Positions 5,794 to 25,103 of a DNA stretch of 64,000 bases are shown one piece after another. The stretch comes from Candidatus Eremiobacterota bacterium (GTDB lineage Bacteria; Vulcanimicrobiota; CADAWZ01; Ess09-12), in NCBI GenBank assembly GCA_031082125.1, contig JAVHLM010000005.1, positions 62,001 through 126,000 on the forward strand. The letters run 5' to 3'. Position numbers and translations under genes: made by a program. The notes below the pieces were generated by a model. It searched no databases, had not been told where the DNA came from, and saw only the letters and a program-made list of their open reading frames with translations. The number at the start of each line of letters is the position of its first letter. Positions within the stretch are counted from its first letter, which is position 1.

Positions 5794-7003
5794 GACCTCT
5801 CTCCTCATAGTGACCCAGTATTACCACCCTGATGTGACGGCTGCCGCATTCCGCATCAAGGAGACTGCCGATTTGCTCGCAGGGAAGGGATATGAGGTGA
5901 CGGTCATCACGGCGCGCCCGCACCGCGGGATAGCCGAGGGGGAAAGTGCCGCTCCCCTTGATGACGGCGCCGTGAAAGTGATCAGGGTGCCCCTTGTGCC
6001 CTATTCCGGGAAAGGCAAGTGGAACTATATCGCTCATTATTCGTCATTCATGATGAACGCCCTCATGGCGGCTCTCAGGCTCAAAGGCCGCCCCTCGGTG
6101 GTTTTAGCCACGAGCCCGCCCCTCTTTGCGGGGTGGGCGGGCCTTCTCACCGCGCGCCTCAAGGGGGCGAAGTTCTTCCTTGACGTGCGGGATCTCTGGC
6201 CCGAGTCAGCCGTGTCGGCAGGGCAGCTCTCTCAGTCGGGCATTCTTTTCAGGGGGGCGAAAGTGGCCGAGCGCTTGCTCTACGGGGGCGCCGTGAAGAT
6301 ATCGGCCGTGTCAAGGCCCATGGCAGAGCGCATCGGCGGGATTATGGGCGCCCCGGGCAGTGAAAAGCTCTTCGTCATGTACAACGGGGTGCCGTCCTCA
6401 TATCTCCCGGAGGCAGGAAAGGAGCCTGAAGCGAGCTCCCGGGATTTCACGGTCTCCTATGTGGGGAACTTCGGGCGCTGCCAGAATCTTGAGGTGGTGG
6501 TCGAAGCGGCGGCGCTGCTGGAGAAGGAGGGGCATTCCGGCATCGACTTCCGCCTTATCGGAGATGGCGTGGAGCGAAGGAAGCTCGAGGCCATGGCTTT
6601 AGAGAGGGGCTTGAAGCGCTTCGCGATTGAGGGGCCTGTCGGCAAGGCCGAGGCTTTCAGGGAGATGGCGCAGGCTTCGGCGCTTGTCCTTCCCCTCCTC
6701 TCGGACGAGACGATGGCGAGAACAATCCCTTCGAAAGTCTTTGACTACATGTGCGCGGGAAAGCCTGTCATTTACGGCATCAAGGGCGAAGGCGCCGAGA
6801 TCCTGTCGCGCACCGGGGGAAATCTTGCCTTTATCCCCGACGATCCGCCGTCGCTCTCTGAGGCCATAAGGAAAGTGAAAGAGGAGCATGAGGCTTTCTC
6901 GCTCAGGGCATCGGGAAATGCCCGGGAAGTGGCGCAGTCTTATACAAGGGAAAAGATGGCGGACCTTCTCGATGAGAAGATAAGGGAGGTCCTGGGCAGA
7001 TAA
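5765..7003 (+). CDS. Glycosyltransferase family 4 (WbuB/WcaI-like)
   Basis: 412 residues from GTG 5765, chosen because AAGGAG (5753-5758) lies 6 nt upstream; it overlaps the heparinase-like gene by 29 nt. The N-terminus LLIVTQYYHPDVTAAAFR is typical of WbuB/WcaI-type GT4 enzymes, and the acceptor-side segment FFLDVRDLWPESAV is a family hallmark. The C-terminal Rossmann half contains VSYVGNFGRCQNLE and a nucleotide-sugar site around KVFDYMCAGKPVIYGI. It should transfer a sugar from a nucleotide donor to a lipid-linked polysaccharide intermediate on the cytoplasmic side of the membrane. It is the last gene of the 842-7003 run. Confidence 0.88.
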   Translation: MCSASSSGRETSLLIVTQYYHPDVTAAAFRIKETADLLAGKGYEVTVITARPHRGIAEGESAAPLDDGAVKVIRVPLVPYSGKGKWNYIAHYSSFMMNALMAALRLKGRPSVVLATSPPLFAGWAGLLTARLKGAKFFLDVRDLWPESAVSAGQLSQSGILFRGAKVAERLLYGGAVKISAVSRPMAERIGGIMGAPGSEKLFVMYNGVPSSYLPEAGKEPEASSRDFTVSYVGNFGRCQNLEVVVEAAALLEKEGHSGIDFRLIGDGVERRKLEAMALERGLKRFAIEGPVGKAEAFREMAQASALVLPLLSDETMARTIPSKVFDYMCAGKPVIYGIKGEGAEILSRTGGNLAFIPDDPPSLSEAIRKVKEEHEAFSLRASGNAREVAQSYTREKMADLLDEKIREVLGR

Positions 7004-7011
7004 ACAGCCTG

Positions 7012-7287
7012 TCAGCCCCTTCTTGCCTCGATATCAATGATTTTATGGGCGCCCACGGCTCTCAGGTAATAGTGATCTTCCCGGATCTCGAAGGTGAAGC
7101 GGTATGAGGCATCAACATATCCCTCCCAGATGGACCCTGTGCGCTCAATCAGGTGGAGCCTCAGCGAGGGATGGATCGGGTTCTCCCTGAGGAAGCGGAG
7201 ATGCTTGTCCACTTTTTTCCGGATCTCTCGGGGGAGCTTTTGGTAGCATTCTTTGAAGGTTCGTGAGATTTTCAGCTTTTTAGCCAT
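7012..7287 (-). CDS. RelE/ParE-family toxin
   Basis: 91 residues, basic, beginning MAKKLKISRTFKECYQKLP and ending with HKIIDIEARRG. The pattern of an N-terminal helical pair, a central LHLIERTGSIWEGYVD strand turn and the YRFTFEIREDHYYLRAVGAHKI strands matches RelE/YafQ-type ribosome-dependent mRNA interferases or ParE-type gyrase poisons; sequence alone does not separate them. The start overlaps the end of the antitoxin gene by 16 nt, the usual arrangement for coordinated translation. The gene lies on the opposite strand to the flanking polysaccharide genes. Confidence 0.82.
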   Translation of the reverse strand: MAKKLKISRTFKECYQKLPREIRKKVDKHLRFLRENPIHPSLRLHLIERTGSIWEGYVDASYRFTFEIREDHYYLRAVGAHKIIDIEARRG

Positions 7288-7683: not shown

Positions 7684-9120
7684 GTGGGCTCCATCGTCAC
7701 AAGAAATCCCTTCGTGCGCAGGCAGTATCTGCTTGTGGCCGTTGACACCGTTATCATCCTTGCCTCCATTATCTTCATGTACCTCCCCTGGTTCAGGTTT
7801 TCCTGGGCCGACCTCTTCGCGGGGCTTGCGAGAGGGCTCTGGATCCCCGTAGCCATAGCGGTCCTTGCCCACCTGGCAGTCTTCTATGTCTTCGACCTCT
7901 ATAACGTGAGGAGCGTCTCTCTCTCCCAGGGCAGGCTCGTCCGCATCATCCTGGCGGTGCTCCTCGCTGTCGGGGGGCTCACCATGCTCTTCTACTTCTT
8001 CCAGAAGGTGCCCAACCTCAGGAAGGTGCTGGTGACCCACATCCCCCTCATCATCATCGCAATCTATGCCTGGAGGCTCATCTTTTACCGCACGGTAATG
8101 AAGGCCCAGGTGCGCACCGTCGTCATGCTTCTCGGTGATGATGCCCTCAACTGGGCACTGGTGAAGGCCATCCGCGATGACCCGATGATGGAGTACCGCA
8201 CGGCAGCCCTCATCCCCGACACTTCCGGGGCGCAGGCCCTCTGCTGGAAGGACACCGACGGCGAGGCCCTCATGATGGGCCCCTGCAATGATATCGAAGA
8301 GGTCATGAAGGAGTGGGATATCAATGTGGTGGTGTTTTCTCTGAAGGCGCTCCCCCTGTTCCGCGCAAAGCTTCTCTTCCTGAAGTCGCGGGGCGTCCAG
8401 GTTTTTGATGCCCTTACCTTCTACTCCCTCATCACGGGGAGAATACCTGTCGTAAGCACCGAGGATTCCACGGTGGCAGTGCTTGCCGAGCGCTTCCCTC
8501 TCCCCGCCTATTACCTTAATGTGAAGCGCCTCGTTGATGTGTGCCTCTCGCTCTTTGGCATCATCATATCGTTCCCCTTTGTCGCCCTGTCAGCTATCCT
8601 CATCGCCATAGAATCGCCTGGCCCCCTCTTCTTCCGCCCCGAGCGCGTGGGGCAGTTCGGGAGGACCCTGCGCCTTTTCAAGCTCCGCACCATGCGCCAT
8701 ACAGCGAAAAAAGGGCCCCTTTTCACCCAGCCGGGCGATGAGCGCGTGACCCGCACGGGATGGCTCATCCGCAAGTTCGGCTTTGACGAGTTCCCCCAGC
8801 TTTTCAATGTCCTCTGGGGAGACCTCTCCCTCATCGGGCCCCGCCCCATCGAGGAGGTCTTCGTGGACAAATATGCGGCCATGACGCCTCTCTATTACCT
8901 CCGCCTGTCGGTGAAGCCCGGCATCTCGGGGTGGGCCCAGGTGAACCAGGTGGAGTACCCCAACTCCGACGAGAGCCAGCTCGTCAAGCTGGAGTATGAC
9001 CTCTTCTATGTCTCTCACGTGTCCCTTTTCCTTGACGTGATTATCATCCTGAAGACCCTGAAGAAGTTCTTCCACCTGGGCTACGACAGCCGCGAGGGGA
9101 AGGCTCCCGCTTTATTATAA
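7684..9120 (+). CDS. Polyprenyl-phosphate glycosylphosphotransferase (EPS initiating sugar transferase)
   Basis: 478 residues from GTG 7684, with GAGGTGA at 7671-7677. Four hydrophobic segments occupy the first 130 residues, followed by a CoA-binding-like Rossmann region and a further membrane helix (FGIIISFPFVALSAILI) near residue 300. The C-terminal catalytic domain contains ESPGPLFFRPERVGQFGR, FKLRTMR, TRTGWLIRKFGFDEFPQLFN and LSLIGPRP, the conserved pattern of WbaP/EpsE-type enzymes. It transfers sugar-1-phosphate from a UDP-sugar to undecaprenyl phosphate, starting repeat-unit synthesis at the inner membrane. It probably serves the same polysaccharide as the 2027-7003 genes. Confidence 0.92.
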   Translation: MGSIVTRNPFVRRQYLLVAVDTVIILASIIFMYLPWFRFSWADLFAGLARGLWIPVAIAVLAHLAVFYVFDLYNVRSVSLSQGRLVRIILAVLLAVGGLTMLFYFFQKVPNLRKVLVTHIPLIIIAIYAWRLIFYRTVMKAQVRTVVMLLGDDALNWALVKAIRDDPMMEYRTAALIPDTSGAQALCWKDTDGEALMMGPCNDIEEVMKEWDINVVVFSLKALPLFRAKLLFLKSRGVQVFDALTFYSLITGRIPVVSTEDSTVAVLAERFPLPAYYLNVKRLVDVCLSLFGIIISFPFVALSAILIAIESPGPLFFRPERVGQFGRTLRLFKLRTMRHTAKKGPLFTQPGDERVTRTGWLIRKFGFDEFPQLFNVLWGDLSLIGPRPIEEVFVDKYAAMTPLYYLRLSVKPGISGWAQVNQVEYPNSDESQLVKLEYDLFYVSHVSLFLDVIIILKTLKKFFHLGYDSREGKAPALL

Positions 9121-20556: not shown

Positions 20557-20568
20557 AAGGTGAGTCTC

Positions 20569-21087
20569 ATGTGGTTTGCCGTCAACACGAAGCCCCGCAA
20601 CGAAAACCTTGCGAAGCAGAGCATCGAGGAGAAGGGCGTGGAAGTCTTTCTGCCCAGGTTCGAGACGTCGCGCCGCCGCGGCGGGAAGCGCGTCCTCACC
20701 GTGGAGCCCCTCTTCCCGGGCTACCTTTTCGTGAGCACCGGCGAAGGCGAAGGGGAGAAATCGCCTGTTGACGTCCTGATCGCCATCCGCTGGGTCCCCG
20801 GGGTGAAGCGCGTCCTCTGCTCGGGCCTGAGCCCCGTGCAGGTGCCCGACGAGGCCATCAACCTCATCAGGTGGCGCATCGGCGAGGGAGGCCCGGGGGT
20901 GCCCAAGGTGGAGCGCGAGTTCCGGGAGGGAGACTCCGTTGCCGTGCGCCACGGCCCCTTCAAGGGCCTCATCGGCGTGGTAGACAGGACAATCCCCGCC
21001 AAGGACCGCGTGCGGGTCTTCCTGGACTTCATGTCCCACCAGACGCCCGTGGAGCTTGATTCAGTGCTGCTCGACCGCCTCTCCTGA
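20569..21087 (+). CDS. NusG-family specialised antiterminator (RfaH/LoaP/UpxY-like)
   Basis: 172 residues from ATG 20569, with AAGGTGAG at 20557-20564. The N-terminal NGN domain shows WFAVNTKPRNENLAKQSIEE, VFLPRFE and EPLFPGYLFV, and the linker leads to a C-terminal KOW domain with GDSVAVRHGPFKGLIGVVD. Shorter sequence identity to housekeeping NusG and placement after a polysaccharide gene suggest a paralogue that loads onto RNA polymerase at particular long operons and prevents early termination. It lies 12 nt after the UDP-ManNAc dehydrogenase. Only one plus-strand gene follows it, so its target operon is probably elsewhere. Confidence 0.88.
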   Translation: MWFAVNTKPRNENLAKQSIEEKGVEVFLPRFETSRRRGGKRVLTVEPLFPGYLFVSTGEGEGEKSPVDVLIAIRWVPGVKRVLCSGLSPVQVPDEAINLIRWRIGEGGPGVPKVEREFREGDSVAVRHGPFKGLIGVVDRTIPAKDRVRVFLDFMSHQTPVELDSVLLDRLS

Positions 21088-21110: not shown

Positions 21111-21803
21111 ATGCTGGAGTACGGACCTCATCTATACCAGAAGAAGGGCTTCGCAAGGAATCCTTTCCAGGAGCTCAGCGAGAGGGAGCTTCTTGCCCTG
21201 TTCCCCCCGGGAGGAGAGCTTCTCACCCTCATTGAGGGGGGAGATCCTCAGCCCCTCCAGCTCGTGGGCCCTGAGGGATCGGGGAAGTCATCGGCCCTCC
21301 TCCAGATAAGGCGCTATTTTCTGCAGAAGGGTGTCGAGGTCATGTATTTTCATATAGATCATGAAGGCGAGGCGCTGTCCGGGCAGAGCATTCTCGAGGT
21401 GCCCGTCCTTCTTATTGACGAGGCCTGGCGGCTGGTGCCGCAGAATCTTGAGGAACTCCTCGCTCCCCGCCTGTCCCGGAGTCTTTTTACCGCTTTCTCA
21501 AGCCATGGCGATCTCGGTCCTGTTCTCAAGATGCCTCTCAGCACCTGGAGCACGGAACAGGGGGCTCTCTCAAGGACCGGCGAGCTGTTTGCCGTTCTTG
21601 TGGAGGCTTTCCGGGAGCGCCATGAGCGCCATGAGCTCTCGGAGGGCGGAAAAGAGGCTCTTCTCAGGTGCGCCGCGGGGAACCTGAGGACCTGGAGAGC
21701 CCATCTCTACGAGATCTTCACCTGGGACCCCATTCCTCCCGTCATCGAGGCATGCCATGCGGCAACGGCCCATGCCGCGCTCTGGGGGGAAAAACCTGCT
21801 TGA
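21111..21803 (+). CDS. P-loop ATPase of unknown role
   Basis: 230 residues. Walker A is GPEGSGKSS near residue 58 and Walker B is VPVLLIDEAW near residue 103, with a helical C-terminal lid region. The outline is that of small AAA/ExeA-like ATPases that sense a bound partner. It lacks any membrane segment and has no visible partner domain. It starts 23 nt after the NusG-like gene on the same strand and is convergent with the arrestin-like pair. A role in assembly or regulation of the polysaccharide machinery is only a guess from position. Confidence 0.7.
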   Translation: MLEYGPHLYQKKGFARNPFQELSERELLALFPPGGELLTLIEGGDPQPLQLVGPEGSGKSSALLQIRRYFLQKGVEVMYFHIDHEGEALSGQSILEVPVLLIDEAWRLVPQNLEELLAPRLSRSLFTAFSSHGDLGPVLKMPLSTWSTEQGALSRTGELFAVLVEAFRERHERHELSEGGKEALLRCAAGNLRTWRAHLYEIFTWDPIPPVIEACHAATAHAALWGEKPA

Positions 21804-21839: not shown

Positions 21840-22250
21840 TTACTTGAGGCGCGGAAGCACGGTAAACTCGCGCTCCTCGCGCTTGTCAAACCAGAAGGGG
21901 ATGTCGATGCGCACCCTCACATACCACTCAAACTTCGCGTAGGAGCCCTTGTAGGTCACCGGTCCCTCGCGGGGGACCTTGAAGGCGAAGTGCTTCTCCA
22001 CGGGGTTGTTCCTTATAAGGTTCCCGTGGAAGAACATCTCCTGGACCATCTGCTGGTCATGGGGCGTCCCCATGCCGCCCTCCTTGTAGCCGATTTCGAG
22101 CCACAGCCCCCGGCAGTTCACGTCTTCAGAGGGAATAAGCACGATATCTCCCTCGAAGCTCCCGCCGCAGGGCGTGCCTGACACCTCGATGTCGCCGAGG
22201 CGATGGTATTTCTCATCGATTTTTACTCTCAGCTCATAGCTGCCGGCCAT
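21840..22250 (-). CDS. Arrestin-like beta-sandwich protein, copy 2
   Basis: 136 residues; GGGAGG 5 nt upstream. The C-terminal segment FEWYVRVRIDIPFWFDKREE matches, position by position, VNWELRVRLDVPWWPDTRYT of the upstream neighbour, so the two are paralogues. The strand pattern and the R-V-R-I-D-I-P motif are those of Vps26/arrestin/Spo0M-type proteins. No signal peptide or membrane segment is present, so it is probably cytoplasmic and acts by protein binding. It follows the other copy by 22 nt on the minus strand and is convergent with the ATPase gene. Confidence 0.65.
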   Translation of the reverse strand: MAGSYELRVKIDEKYHRLGDIEVSGTPCGGSFEGDIVLIPSEDVNCRGLWLEIGYKEGGMGTPHDQQMVQEMFFHGNLIRNNPVEKHFAFKVPREGPVTYKGSYAKFEWYVRVRIDIPFWFDKREEREFTVLPRLK

Positions 22251-22272
22251 GGATGCCTCCCTTGTCGCTGAG

Positions 22273-22686
22273 TCACTTCGCCACCACGTTCGAGACTATG
22301 ATCTCCTTGGTGTAACGGGTATCGGGCCACCAGGGCACGTCGAGGCGCACGCGGAGCTCCCAGTTCACCATGTGGTTTTTGCCGTTGTAAGTGGGCGCCG
22401 AAAGGGTGGGAAGGGAGAAGGCCTCCTTGATGGTGACCGGGATGCCCGGCATGAGGGTTGTCTCCCCTATGGCTTCCCTGTTGTCGGTGTAAACGTCCTT
22501 GCGGTAATAGCTGTCGGAGGTGCCCCGCGAGATGCCCGTCTCCTTGCAGAAGAGCCCTACCTCTATCTTCCTGAGCTTCGCCTGGCACTGGGGCGTGACG
22601 GTCACCTCGCAGGGAATCTCATCTCCCATGTTCACCTGGAAAGGTGAGGTGACGGTAATGTCTGCCTTGTCAAAAATTCCTGTCAT
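22273..22686 (-). CDS. Arrestin-like (Spo0M-type) beta-sandwich protein, copy 1
   Basis: 137 residues from ATG 22686, chosen over upstream starts because GAGGGGG lies 6 nt before it. The sequence begins with DITVTSPFQVNMGDEIPCEV, an opening strand pair seen in arrestin-fold proteins (a ligand-side strand followed by a G-D-x-I-x-x-x-V pattern), and ends with WELRVRLDVPWWPDTRYTKE. It forms a two-gene minus-strand unit with its paralogue and is divergent from the TPR/HD-GYP gene. Spo0M-type arrestins are known in Bacillus as modulators of development; the role here is unknown. Confidence 0.65.
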   Translation of the reverse strand: MTGIFDKADITVTSPFQVNMGDEIPCEVTVTPQCQAKLRKIEVGLFCKETGISRGTSDSYYRKDVYTDNREAIGETTLMPGIPVTIKEAFSLPTLSAPTYNGKNHMVNWELRVRLDVPWWPDTRYTKEIIVSNVVAK

Positions 22687-22874: not shown

Positions 22875-25103
22875 ATGAGAAACGAGCAGACCATCAAGAA
22901 GCTGGAGCGCATCGTTGCCGATGAGCCAAGCAATCATGAGGCCCTTTTCCAGCTCGGAAGGCACTACATAGAGAATGACGATCTCAACGGCGCGATCTAT
23001 TACCTGGAAAAAGCCCTCACGGTAAACCCCAACCTCATCAATGCCCGCTACGAGCTGGCCGTGGTGTTCTCGCGGAACTTCGCCTACGAGTACGCGGTGA
23101 AAGAGTGGCAGAAGATCGTCGATGAAGACGGCGATTTCCGCTTCCACGAGATTGACATGGCCTCCATGGTGAACCTGACCATCGCCGTGAAAGCCTGGGA
23201 ACGCTATGACGCCTCGGAAGCCGACTCGCCGTACAAGCATTTCACCCTGGGCTTTATCTACTACTGCCTCAGGATGATTGACAAGTCCATCAGCCAGTAT
23301 ATCAAGGCCGTGACGAGCAACGACAAGTTTGAGATGGCCCATTATTTTCTGGGCCTCTCCTTTGCCGAGAAAGGCGATTTTGCCAATGCCTTCAAGGCCT
23401 ACAGCATCGAGCTCACTCTCAGGCCCCAGTCTCCCAATGTGTGCTACCATCTGGGCATGGCCAACTACCGCCTCGGGAAGATCCAGCAGGCCGTCCTGTC
23501 ATACCAGAAAGCCATCCAGTACCGGCCGAGGTATCTCAAGGCCAATTTTCAGCTCGGCATCTCATTCTCCGCCCAGGGGCTCTTCCCCCAGGCTGAGAAG
23601 GCATTCAAGCTGACCCTTGACTACAAGCCTAATTTTGCCGACGCCCACCTTGAGCTGGGCAAGGCCTATCACAAGCAGTACAGGATGGACGAGGCAGCCA
23701 AGGAATACGAGCTTGCCATCCGCTCCAATCCCCGCCTCAAGGAGGCCGCGTTCAAGCTCGGCGAGCTCAAGAAATCGCTGGGAAAGATGGACGAGGCCGT
23801 CAACTATTTCCAGAGGGCCTCCGAGCTTGATCCCACCGACGGCGACATATACTACTACGTGGGCTCCATTTACTCGCAGCAGAAAAAATTCGAGGAAGCG
23901 GTGCTGGAGTTCCGTAAGGCCCTCAACCTCATCCCCAACCATGACTTCGCCATCTATGCCCTCGGCGAGGTGCTCTTCAACATGGGCGAGCTTGATCGGG
24001 CCATCGAGATGTACAAGAGGGGTCTTCAGCTCAATCCCAACGACAACAAGTTCCGCAACGCCCTCGGCAAGGCCCTTTTCAGGACCGGCGACCTCGAGCA
24101 GGCCATCTGCGAGTTCCAGAAAGTCCTCGAGGAGAATCCCAAGGACGCCTTCTCCCATTACTACCTCGGCCTCTCCCTTTTCAAGACGGGCAAGATTGCC
24201 GAGGCTGCACGGGAGTACCAGCGCTCGGTGGAGTCAAACCCCAACAGCGCCTATGCCCATTTCTGCCTGGGAGCGAGCTACTCCAAGAACAAGGAGTTCG
24301 AGCTCGCCGTCAGGGAGTTTGAGAAGGCCACGGAGCTCATGCCCTCCTCGGAGGCAGAGCTGGCCCTCTTCGGCACGCTGCAGCTTCTTGCGGCCATCGG
24401 GATTGAGCATGCCCAGCAGGGCCAGGAGCTTGAGCGCCGTTATATCCAGATCCGCGAGGTATACCGCGAGACGGTGAAGGCCCTCGCCAACGCCATCGAT
24501 GCCCGCGATCCCTACACGCGCTTCCACTCGGCCCGCGTCTCGCGCATTGCCAAGACCCTGGCCATCCATATCAGGAACATTGATTCCGAGCTCATCCCCG
24601 CGTCTTACATCGAGGATATCGAGATTGGGGGCCTCCTCCACGACGTGGGCAAGATAGCCATTCCCGACTATATCGTGCGCAAGGAGGCAGCCCTCACCGA
24701 CGAGGAGATGGCTTACATGAGAAAGCACCCCCTCGAGGGGGAGAAGATTCTCAAGGACATCAACTTCCCGTGGCAGGTCATCCCCCTCGTGCGCCACCAC
24801 CACGAGAAATACAACGGGAGAGGCTATCCTGACGGCCTTTTCGGCGAGAGCATCCCCTTCGGCGCCATGATCATCTGCATTGCCGATGTCTATGACGCCC
24901 TTGTGACGAACAGGCCCTACCGGAAAGCTTATTCAGCCGAGCAGGCCCTCGGCATCATCACCAAGGGGAGGGGCACCGAGTTCGCCGAGGGGATAGTGGA
25001 CGCCTTCATCGAGATTGTGCCTACCCTGGAGCCGCTCCTGGTGGACATTACCCAGAAACGCGACAGCGATTATAACCCCGAGCGCCGCTCACCCCGGGCC
25101 TGA
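22875..25103 (+). CDS. TPR-repeat protein with C-terminal HD-GYP phosphodiesterase domain
   Basis: 742 residues from ATG 22875, with GGAGGG 5 nt upstream. About a dozen tetratricopeptide repeats fill residues 1-510; typical units are AHYFLGLSFAEKGDFANAFK and AIYALGEVLFNMGELDRAIE. The HD-GYP domain (about 535-720) keeps the metal ligands in FHSARVSRIA, LLHDVGKIAIPDYIV, HPLEGEKIL and the signature HHEKYNGRGYPDGL. It should degrade cyclic di-GMP in the cytoplasm while the TPR array recruits a partner. No membrane segment is visible. The next gene is ftsY, 40 nt downstream. Confidence 0.92.
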   Translation: MRNEQTIKKLERIVADEPSNHEALFQLGRHYIENDDLNGAIYYLEKALTVNPNLINARYELAVVFSRNFAYEYAVKEWQKIVDEDGDFRFHEIDMASMVNLTIAVKAWERYDASEADSPYKHFTLGFIYYCLRMIDKSISQYIKAVTSNDKFEMAHYFLGLSFAEKGDFANAFKAYSIELTLRPQSPNVCYHLGMANYRLGKIQQAVLSYQKAIQYRPRYLKANFQLGISFSAQGLFPQAEKAFKLTLDYKPNFADAHLELGKAYHKQYRMDEAAKEYELAIRSNPRLKEAAFKLGELKKSLGKMDEAVNYFQRASELDPTDGDIYYYVGSIYSQQKKFEEAVLEFRKALNLIPNHDFAIYALGEVLFNMGELDRAIEMYKRGLQLNPNDNKFRNALGKALFRTGDLEQAICEFQKVLEENPKDAFSHYYLGLSLFKTGKIAEAAREYQRSVESNPNSAYAHFCLGASYSKNKEFELAVREFEKATELMPSSEAELALFGTLQLLAAIGIEHAQQGQELERRYIQIREVYRETVKALANAIDARDPYTRFHSARVSRIAKTLAIHIRNIDSELIPASYIEDIEIGGLLHDVGKIAIPDYIVRKEAALTDEEMAYMRKHPLEGEKILKDINFPWQVIPLVRHHHEKYNGRGYPDGLFGESIPFGAMIICIADVYDALVTNRPYRKAYSAEQALGIITKGRGTEFAEGIVDAFIEIVPTLEPLLVDITQKRDSDYNPERRSPRA

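Follow-up and report, generated by a model that had tools for sequence, protein, structure and literature searches.

In the eukaryotic members of the arrestin clan, two lobes are typically carried by one polypeptide, and VPS26 is also one chain with two lobes. Bacterial members of the clan have been proposed as kin of the eukaryotic arrestins, and among the matches listed in our literature search Spo0M is the bacterial protein of arrestin fold that has been studied in its own right. It has been described as a bacterial member of the arrestin clan (PMC2515105), and cell-division partners have been reported for it (PMC5325327). Here we analyse a stretch of 64,000 nucleotides from a Candidatus Eremiobacterota bacterium (hereafter the window), in which two arrestin lobes are encoded by two adjacent genes, A and B, and a small AAA-type ATPase is encoded next to them.

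Results

Gene organization

The features under study, listed with coordinates on the window, are:

21111..21803, plus strand: small AAA-type P-loop ATPase, 230 aa (profile E=4.2e-13, motif alignment)
21840..22250 including the stop, minus strand: gene B, 136 aa, single arrestin lobe, predicted equivalent of the N-lobe in fused proteins
22273..22686 including the stop, minus strand: gene A, 137 aa, single arrestin lobe, predicted equivalent of the C-lobe in fused two-lobe membrane proteins
ORF from 22854, likelier ATG at 22875, plus strand: TPR/HD-GYP gene, with TPR repeats and HD_5

Gene A begins with an ATG at 22686 behind GAGGGGG, its coding part covering 22276-22686(-) and its stop 22273-22275; gene B begins with an ATG at 22250 behind GGGAGG and is coded on 21843-22250(-). 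B lies behind A with a gap of 22 bp and each gene has a plausible ribosome-binding site. The positions first described for both were confirmed. The original prediction of adjacent paralogues with a common closing motif was likewise upheld: BLASTP aligns A with B at E=1e-10 over residues 70-131, and a profile-profile comparison (three sequences each) gives a probability of 97.9 (E=3e-13). The two proteins are about 22% identical. To judge from these alignments, the closing motif common to the two is more than chance. No hydrophobic (membrane-like) stretch was found in window A, in window B or in the window ATPase, and A and B of this lineage are probably soluble.

As had been described, the pair is transcribed away from a divergent plus-strand gene in which Pfam finds TPR repeats and HD_5; 188 bp separate the starts. 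On the other side of the pair the ATPase gene is convergent with gene B, and 36 bp lie between their ends. The window also carries a NusG paralogue (20560-21087, plus strand), which is closest to the RfaH and UpxY models, below their cut-offs, and which stands directly behind a UDP-glucose/GDP-mannose dehydrogenase gene; a sugar transferase is encoded at 7684-9120. This paralogue is possibly an exopolysaccharide antiterminator.

Fold of the two proteins

Both proteins pass the gathering score of Pfam Arrestin_N (PF00339; 24.9 bits), B with 26.5 and A with 27.5 bits, and A in addition matches Arrestin_C (E=4.5e-5) at 24.2 bits, below the cut-off of 27.7. AlphaFold models made from six-sequence alignments had a mean pLDDT of 74.5 for A, which is least certain at residues 58-74, and of 88.1 for B. 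The arrestin-like fold originally claimed for the two proteins was borne out by these models, which match arrestin lobes, VPS26 and Spo0M. For both, the best match was the N-lobe of ARRDC3 (A: VIA Z 13.3, rmsd 2.5 over 126 residues; B: VIA Z 13.7, rmsd 2.6 over 127 residues). The A model also matched the C-lobe of arrestin-2 with a Z of 12.4, the B model the N-lobes of VPS26 (13.4) and VPS26C (13.5), and both models matched Spo0M (A 12.3, B 11.9); TXNIP was also among the VIA matches listed. The best Foldseek E-values were 1e-7 for A and 4e-9 for B. By their models A and B have the beta-sandwich fold of an arrestin lobe and pass a curated sequence cut-off of the clan; they are separate proteins and not two lobes in one chain, and one-piece relatives exist. 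The cut-off of the Spo0M family itself (PF07070) was missed, B scoring 11.8 bits against the 23 required and A having no listed match.

The identity of each lobe was assigned with one profile for the N-lobe and one for the C-lobe, both built on 11 fused proteins of the order B-membrane-A, which are described below. Window A matched the C-lobe profile at E=9e-25 versus 2e-10 for the N-lobe profile, and window B the N-lobe profile at E=2e-20 versus 3e-12 for the C-lobe profile. The same profiles sorted correctly 32/32 two-gene B proteins and 33/33 two-gene A lobes, and by this measure window B corresponds to the N-lobe and window A to the C-lobe. Earlier profiles, made from the A lobes and two-gene B lobes of the phylum of genome G283 (see below), left window B unseparated (A 2e-12, B 1e-9). 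The likeness of that phylum's lobe profiles to window A and B is not fully independent, because their sequences were found using profiles that contained window A and B. In Pfam the N-lobe/C-lobe split is not clean: the one fused protein of G283's phylum given to it (L175) has Arrestin_N on its B half and Arrestin_C on its A half, both above cut-off, while window A also passes Arrestin_N and one two-gene B protein (L187) weakly matches Arrestin_C.

Relatives in the window's phylum

In a set of 58 genomes that included the window's, a full-length adjacent A-B pair in the same order was found in the window's genome (G000) and in two others, G006 and G012, where the A orthologues are 49-50% and the B orthologues 45-47% identical to the window proteins. 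Extended to 149 genomes of the phylum, the A profile gave strong matches in these three and a weak one in G026 (5.6e-5); Arrestin_N matches of any kind (E<=0.001) occurred in 7 of the 149. A 599-aa protein of another genome of the phylum, G028, has two arrestin-like domains, the second matching the B profile at 4e-10 and the first matching the A profile weakly (0.0014); the fused-protein lobe profiles were no cleaner as to which domain is which. Neither plasmids (tblastn with A, one ATPase and one fused protein) nor viral contigs (profile A2) yielded any relatives.

Several other arrestin-type genes were noted along the way. A two-lobe arrestin lies between a DUF4127-type gene and a gene that by eye is NanE-like, in the window's genome (L052:4812-5642, contig C2) and in G005 (L086:6122-6973, contig C13); the DUF4127-type neighbour was Pfam-tested in the window's genome only, and near both arrestins a protein begins like FFDANPSLRQL / FFNINPTLKQL. 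In both genomes read, this context forms a second conserved arrestin neighbourhood. The window's genome also encodes, on contig C4 (L054:5362-5895 and 5911-7137), a second A-type lobe of 178 aa, whose gene immediately follows that of a SpoIIE-type PP2C phosphatase; the N-terminus of the lobe protein is hydrophobic by eye, and the stretch searched contained no ATPase match. In G026 (contig C364, L010/L040) a 688-aa frame combines an arrestin domain with a C-terminal part that looks by eye like ankyrin repeats. The window's genome is rich in c-di-GMP phosphodiesterase-type and secretion genes (51 HD_5 and 29 GspF matches).

Relatives in other phyla

Beyond the window's phylum, a joint A+B profile run on 388 genomes including the window's reached E<=1e-6 in two, G216 and G283. 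Both have overlapping two-gene operons that encode a protein with a hydrophobic stretch ending in an A-like lobe, followed by a B-like lobe, the A-B overlap being 4 bp (GTGA or ATGA). DUF3592 is present in both two-gene A proteins of G283's phylum that were given to Pfam and absent from that of G216, and in the stretches of G216 searched A and B are present and an ATPase match is absent. Sulfatases and a PSD1-type cytochrome gene (best plasmid match Singulisphaera) suggest that G283 belongs to the Planctomycetota.

In G283's phylum, of which 392 genomes were scanned, an A-lobe profile (A8) matched 60 times. These matches come from 55 genomes and lie in 57 loci, and every locus was read; four are under 8 kb, and eight are weak A matches (E>1e-20) that may not be A lobes and were kept in the 57. 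A B lobe was found in 50 of the 57 loci, as the next gene in 33 and fused in 17, three of these B calls being weak (L195 0.021, L204 0.0058, L200 0.0023). With a strong A (E<1e-20) the proportion is 47/49, the exceptions being L202, which runs off its contig, and L191, which does not. Fourteen of the fusions are ordered B - hydrophobic segment - A (11 at E<1e-10) and three A-B. An in-frame B start at -4 is present in 24 of the 33 two-gene loci, the start nearest to -4 having been chosen. As many as 50 of the 57 A frames contain a hydrophobic stretch (31/33 of the two-gene type and 14/14 of the B-membrane-A type). Four B-membrane-A proteins (L157, L175, L177 and L168) continue past the A lobe with an additional C-terminal region, which by eye is alike between loci. 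When ORFs of at least 80 aa around the 34 complete loci were clustered, no cluster other than those of the lobes, the ATPases and opposite-strand frames covered more than 4 families, among the 25 clusters listed.

The linked ATPase

The conserved neighbour of the pair is the ATPase on its other side, which was absent from the original description. In the 57 loci, ATPases were first picked by screening all ORFs of more than 120 aa, wherever they lay, for a pattern of NPF and then a P-loop, which gave 33; ATPases without NPF could be missed because the pattern required it, and one of these (L188) was recovered by profile. The ATPase profile then gave 34 matches at E<1e-10 in the 742,939 bases of the 57 loci and none elsewhere in those loci, a specificity counted within loci that had been selected for an A lobe. 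All 34 belong to loci that also have B and share A's strand, with no more than 1.8 kb between the stops of A and the ATPase; they are spread over 13 family codes. The gene lies downstream in 29 loci, 27 of the two-gene type and two with A-B fusions, and upstream in five of the B-membrane-A type; 23 of the 57 loci, including the three of the G283 genus, have no linked ATPase.

This profile was built from 33 ATPases of G283-phylum arrestin loci and included no sequence from the window's phylum. Searched against ORFs of at least 100 aa in 153 loci, it finds the window ATPase at E=4.2e-13 and its window-phylum homologues at 1.9e-13 and 5.6e-6; the next match outside arrestin operons is at 3e-5, and the next within the window, an FtsY-like gene, at 2.4e-4. 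The window protein has NPF near its N-terminus, a Walker A motif GPEGSGKSS, a Walker B motif LLIDEAW, the pair SH, and GNLR...Y. The aligned rows have in common NPF, Walker A, the Walker B aspartate and, near the C-terminus, a tyrosine that follows a G(N/D)-x-R-like motif; an (S/T)H pair is present in most of them. The window ATPase (ARNPFQELSERELLAL) and an upstream-type ATPase (RRNPFGELSLEEWATL) are especially alike at their N-termini. The window ATPase is below all Pfam and NCBIfam cut-offs, and in Pfam only P-loop families were matched: with AAA_22 it reaches 20.6 bits against a cut-off of 27, which the homologue L162 passes with 27.7. Some homologues match NACHT and AAA_16, two of them NACHT above cut-off. 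NCBIfam placed A, B and the ATPases below its cut-offs, and PDB sequence searches with ATPase profiles returned other P-loop proteins only, among the matches listed (in one search the best 60 of 752).

In 58 genomes, a single-sequence search with the window ATPase gave matches at E<=0.01 in four: its own, G012, G006 and G050, the last at 0.0098 and in a frame resembling an ABC transporter. When a three-row profile was used, three of the 149 genomes matched at E<=1e-4, and these are the three that have the A-B pair. The chance of this coincidence would be 1.9e-6 if the two were independent, a figure weakened by shared ancestry and by the profile having been made from those three genomes. The window's genome contains both lobes and an NPF ATPase. 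The ATPase gene adjoins B but is convergent with it, on the opposite strand and not co-transcribed with the pair; in G006 it lies 0.8 kb beyond B, convergent and with one gene between, and is cut by the contig end, and in G012 it is on a contig other than the pair's. These arrangements count against the reading preferred below, as do the 23 loci without a linked ATPase and the lack of a match in the stretches of G216 searched.

Discussion

Our preferred reading, to which we give a probability of roughly 0.62, is that A and B together make up an arrestin adaptor of two lobes, each encoded by its own gene, and that a dedicated AAA-type ATPase drives or resets the adaptor, usually at a membrane. 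The lobe fold comes from models and the lobe identities from profiles, and the linkage of A with B, and of both with the ATPase, is recurrent. Because of the natural fusions and the tight gene order, an A-B heterodimer would be the likeliest product, and we infer from these that A and B assemble into one two-lobed arrestin made of two chains. The heterodimer would then bind a target, probably a membrane protein or a membrane-bound complex, since A carries hydrophobic stretches in most relatives; the 50/57 A frames with such a stretch suggest that the adaptor usually works at a membrane. The NPF/AAA-type ATPase, with its P-loop and Walker B motifs, would act on the adaptor, and ATP binding or hydrolysis would load, release or reset it. 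As a tentative extension, which may well not hold, the module could be a machine for trafficking or sorting in bacteria of at least two phyla, in which a dedicated ATPase cycles a two-lobed arrestin tethered to the membrane. One of these phyla looks like the Planctomycetota, which are known for complex internal membranes. If such a machine exists, it could be a functional counterpart, perhaps a distant relative, of the eukaryotic arrestin/VPS26 cargo adaptors.

A different role had been proposed originally, in which the arrestin pair serves the TPR/HD-GYP c-di-GMP phosphodiesterase next to it as output or adaptor, and a conserved HD-GYP neighbourhood had been set beforehand as a test of it. 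The close divergent placement of the two transcription units is what this proposal has in its favour, together with a rough count by which an HD-GYP gene flanks a given gene pair in only about 1% of cases. The neighbourhood, however, did not recur. No HD_5 match is present on the pair's contig in G006 or G012, one of these contigs being 9.4 kb long and the other carrying the pair 1.5 kb from its end; the full-length TPR/HD-GYP homologue of G012 sits on another contig, and no arrestin was found among the ORFs read around it. In G283's phylum, where about 14 kb were read per locus, an HD-GYP-like frame occurs in one of the 34 complete loci (1/57 overall). HD-GYP genes are moreover abundant, with 51 HD_5 matches in about 43 genes of the window's genome, 41 matches in G006 and 20 in G012. 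The HD-GYP neighbour is not conserved, the c-di-GMP reading is without comparative support, and we consider it very improbable.

Three other explanations were weighed against the adaptor-ATPase reading. A and B could be ordinary stand-alone regulators of the Spo0M kind, acting in cell division or stress, with an incidental ATPase linkage. The clan membership and cell-division partners described for Spo0M in the reports cited above, and the match of both models to its structure, are consistent with this, but both lobes are below the Spo0M cut-off, each of the 34 ATPase matches in the 57 loci lies next to an A lobe, and ATPase and pair co-occur in the same 3/149 genomes, which makes it unlikely. 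It is quite unlikely, too, that the module serves type II secretion or type IV pili as an accessory, its ATPase acting like GspA/ExeA. The pair of G012 does lie behind a GspF gene and ahead of a prepilin-like gene, and the ATPase of that genome adjoins prepilin-like genes, yet no second genome showed such a context, GspF-like proteins are common (29 matches in the window's genome, 19 in G012), and a GspF query had no match in the 57 loci of G283's phylum, the same query finding all 16 control loci. The type II secretion link was accordingly dropped. A conflict or defence device, made of a small NACHT/STAND-like ATPase and Ig-like adaptor subunits, would fit the NACHT and AAA_16 matches of some ATPase homologues, the patchy distribution and the PADLOC result for the window ATPase, a weak hit to mad8 (E=7e-4). 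PADLOC, however, gave matches, all of them weak, for ATPases and none for A or B, and neighbouring gene families recur in no more than four families among the 25 clusters listed, and we hold this explanation to be decidedly unlikely.

Of an operon of arrestin lobes and ATPase, no description was found among the matches listed in the open-access literature (titles and abstract openings); we found no named counterpart for the three-part module, both components of which belong to known folds. The preferred adaptor-ATPase reading matters in several respects. A split pair with one-piece relatives elsewhere bears on the kinship of bacterial and eukaryotic arrestins, and a recurrent operon of two lobes and one ATPase family would give bacterial arrestins a defined partner and a biochemical cycle that can be put to the test. 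The module also allows one to ask what role arrestins had before there were receptors, and it gives a setting to proteins known to Pfam only as DUF3592 or as generic AAA.

Compared with the AAA_22, ExeA-GspA and TniB-type ATPases, the window ATPase has the same P-loop and Walker B acidic pair and an NPF near its N-terminus, which presumably resembles that of ExeA; it differs from AAA_22-type ATPases in being a protein of 230 aa that is below the AAA_22 cut-off and matches only P-loop families. With Spo0M of Bacillus subtilis (PDB 5cl2) the pair shares the bacterial arrestin fold (Z 12.3 and 11.9), whereas A and B are below the family cut-off and the match spans one lobe of its roughly 246 residues. 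The likeness of the B model to the N-lobes of VPS26 in retromer and VPS26C in retriever (Z 13.4 and 13.5) makes a VPS26-like adaptor role a conceivable analogy; to our knowledge, the retromer and retriever cores include no ATPase. With the arrestin clan at large, from the alpha-arrestins ARRDC3 and TXNIP to the visual and beta-arrestins, the pair has in common the lobe fold, the Pfam Arrestin_N and Arrestin_C matches and, in its fused bacterial relatives, two lobes per chain. We know of no GPCR or ubiquitin system attached to the bacterial module, unlike the eukaryotic arrestins. It differs from the clan further in that the window's lobes are on two proteins, that the fused bacterial form has a hydrophobic segment between its lobes, and that an ATPase gene is linked to it.
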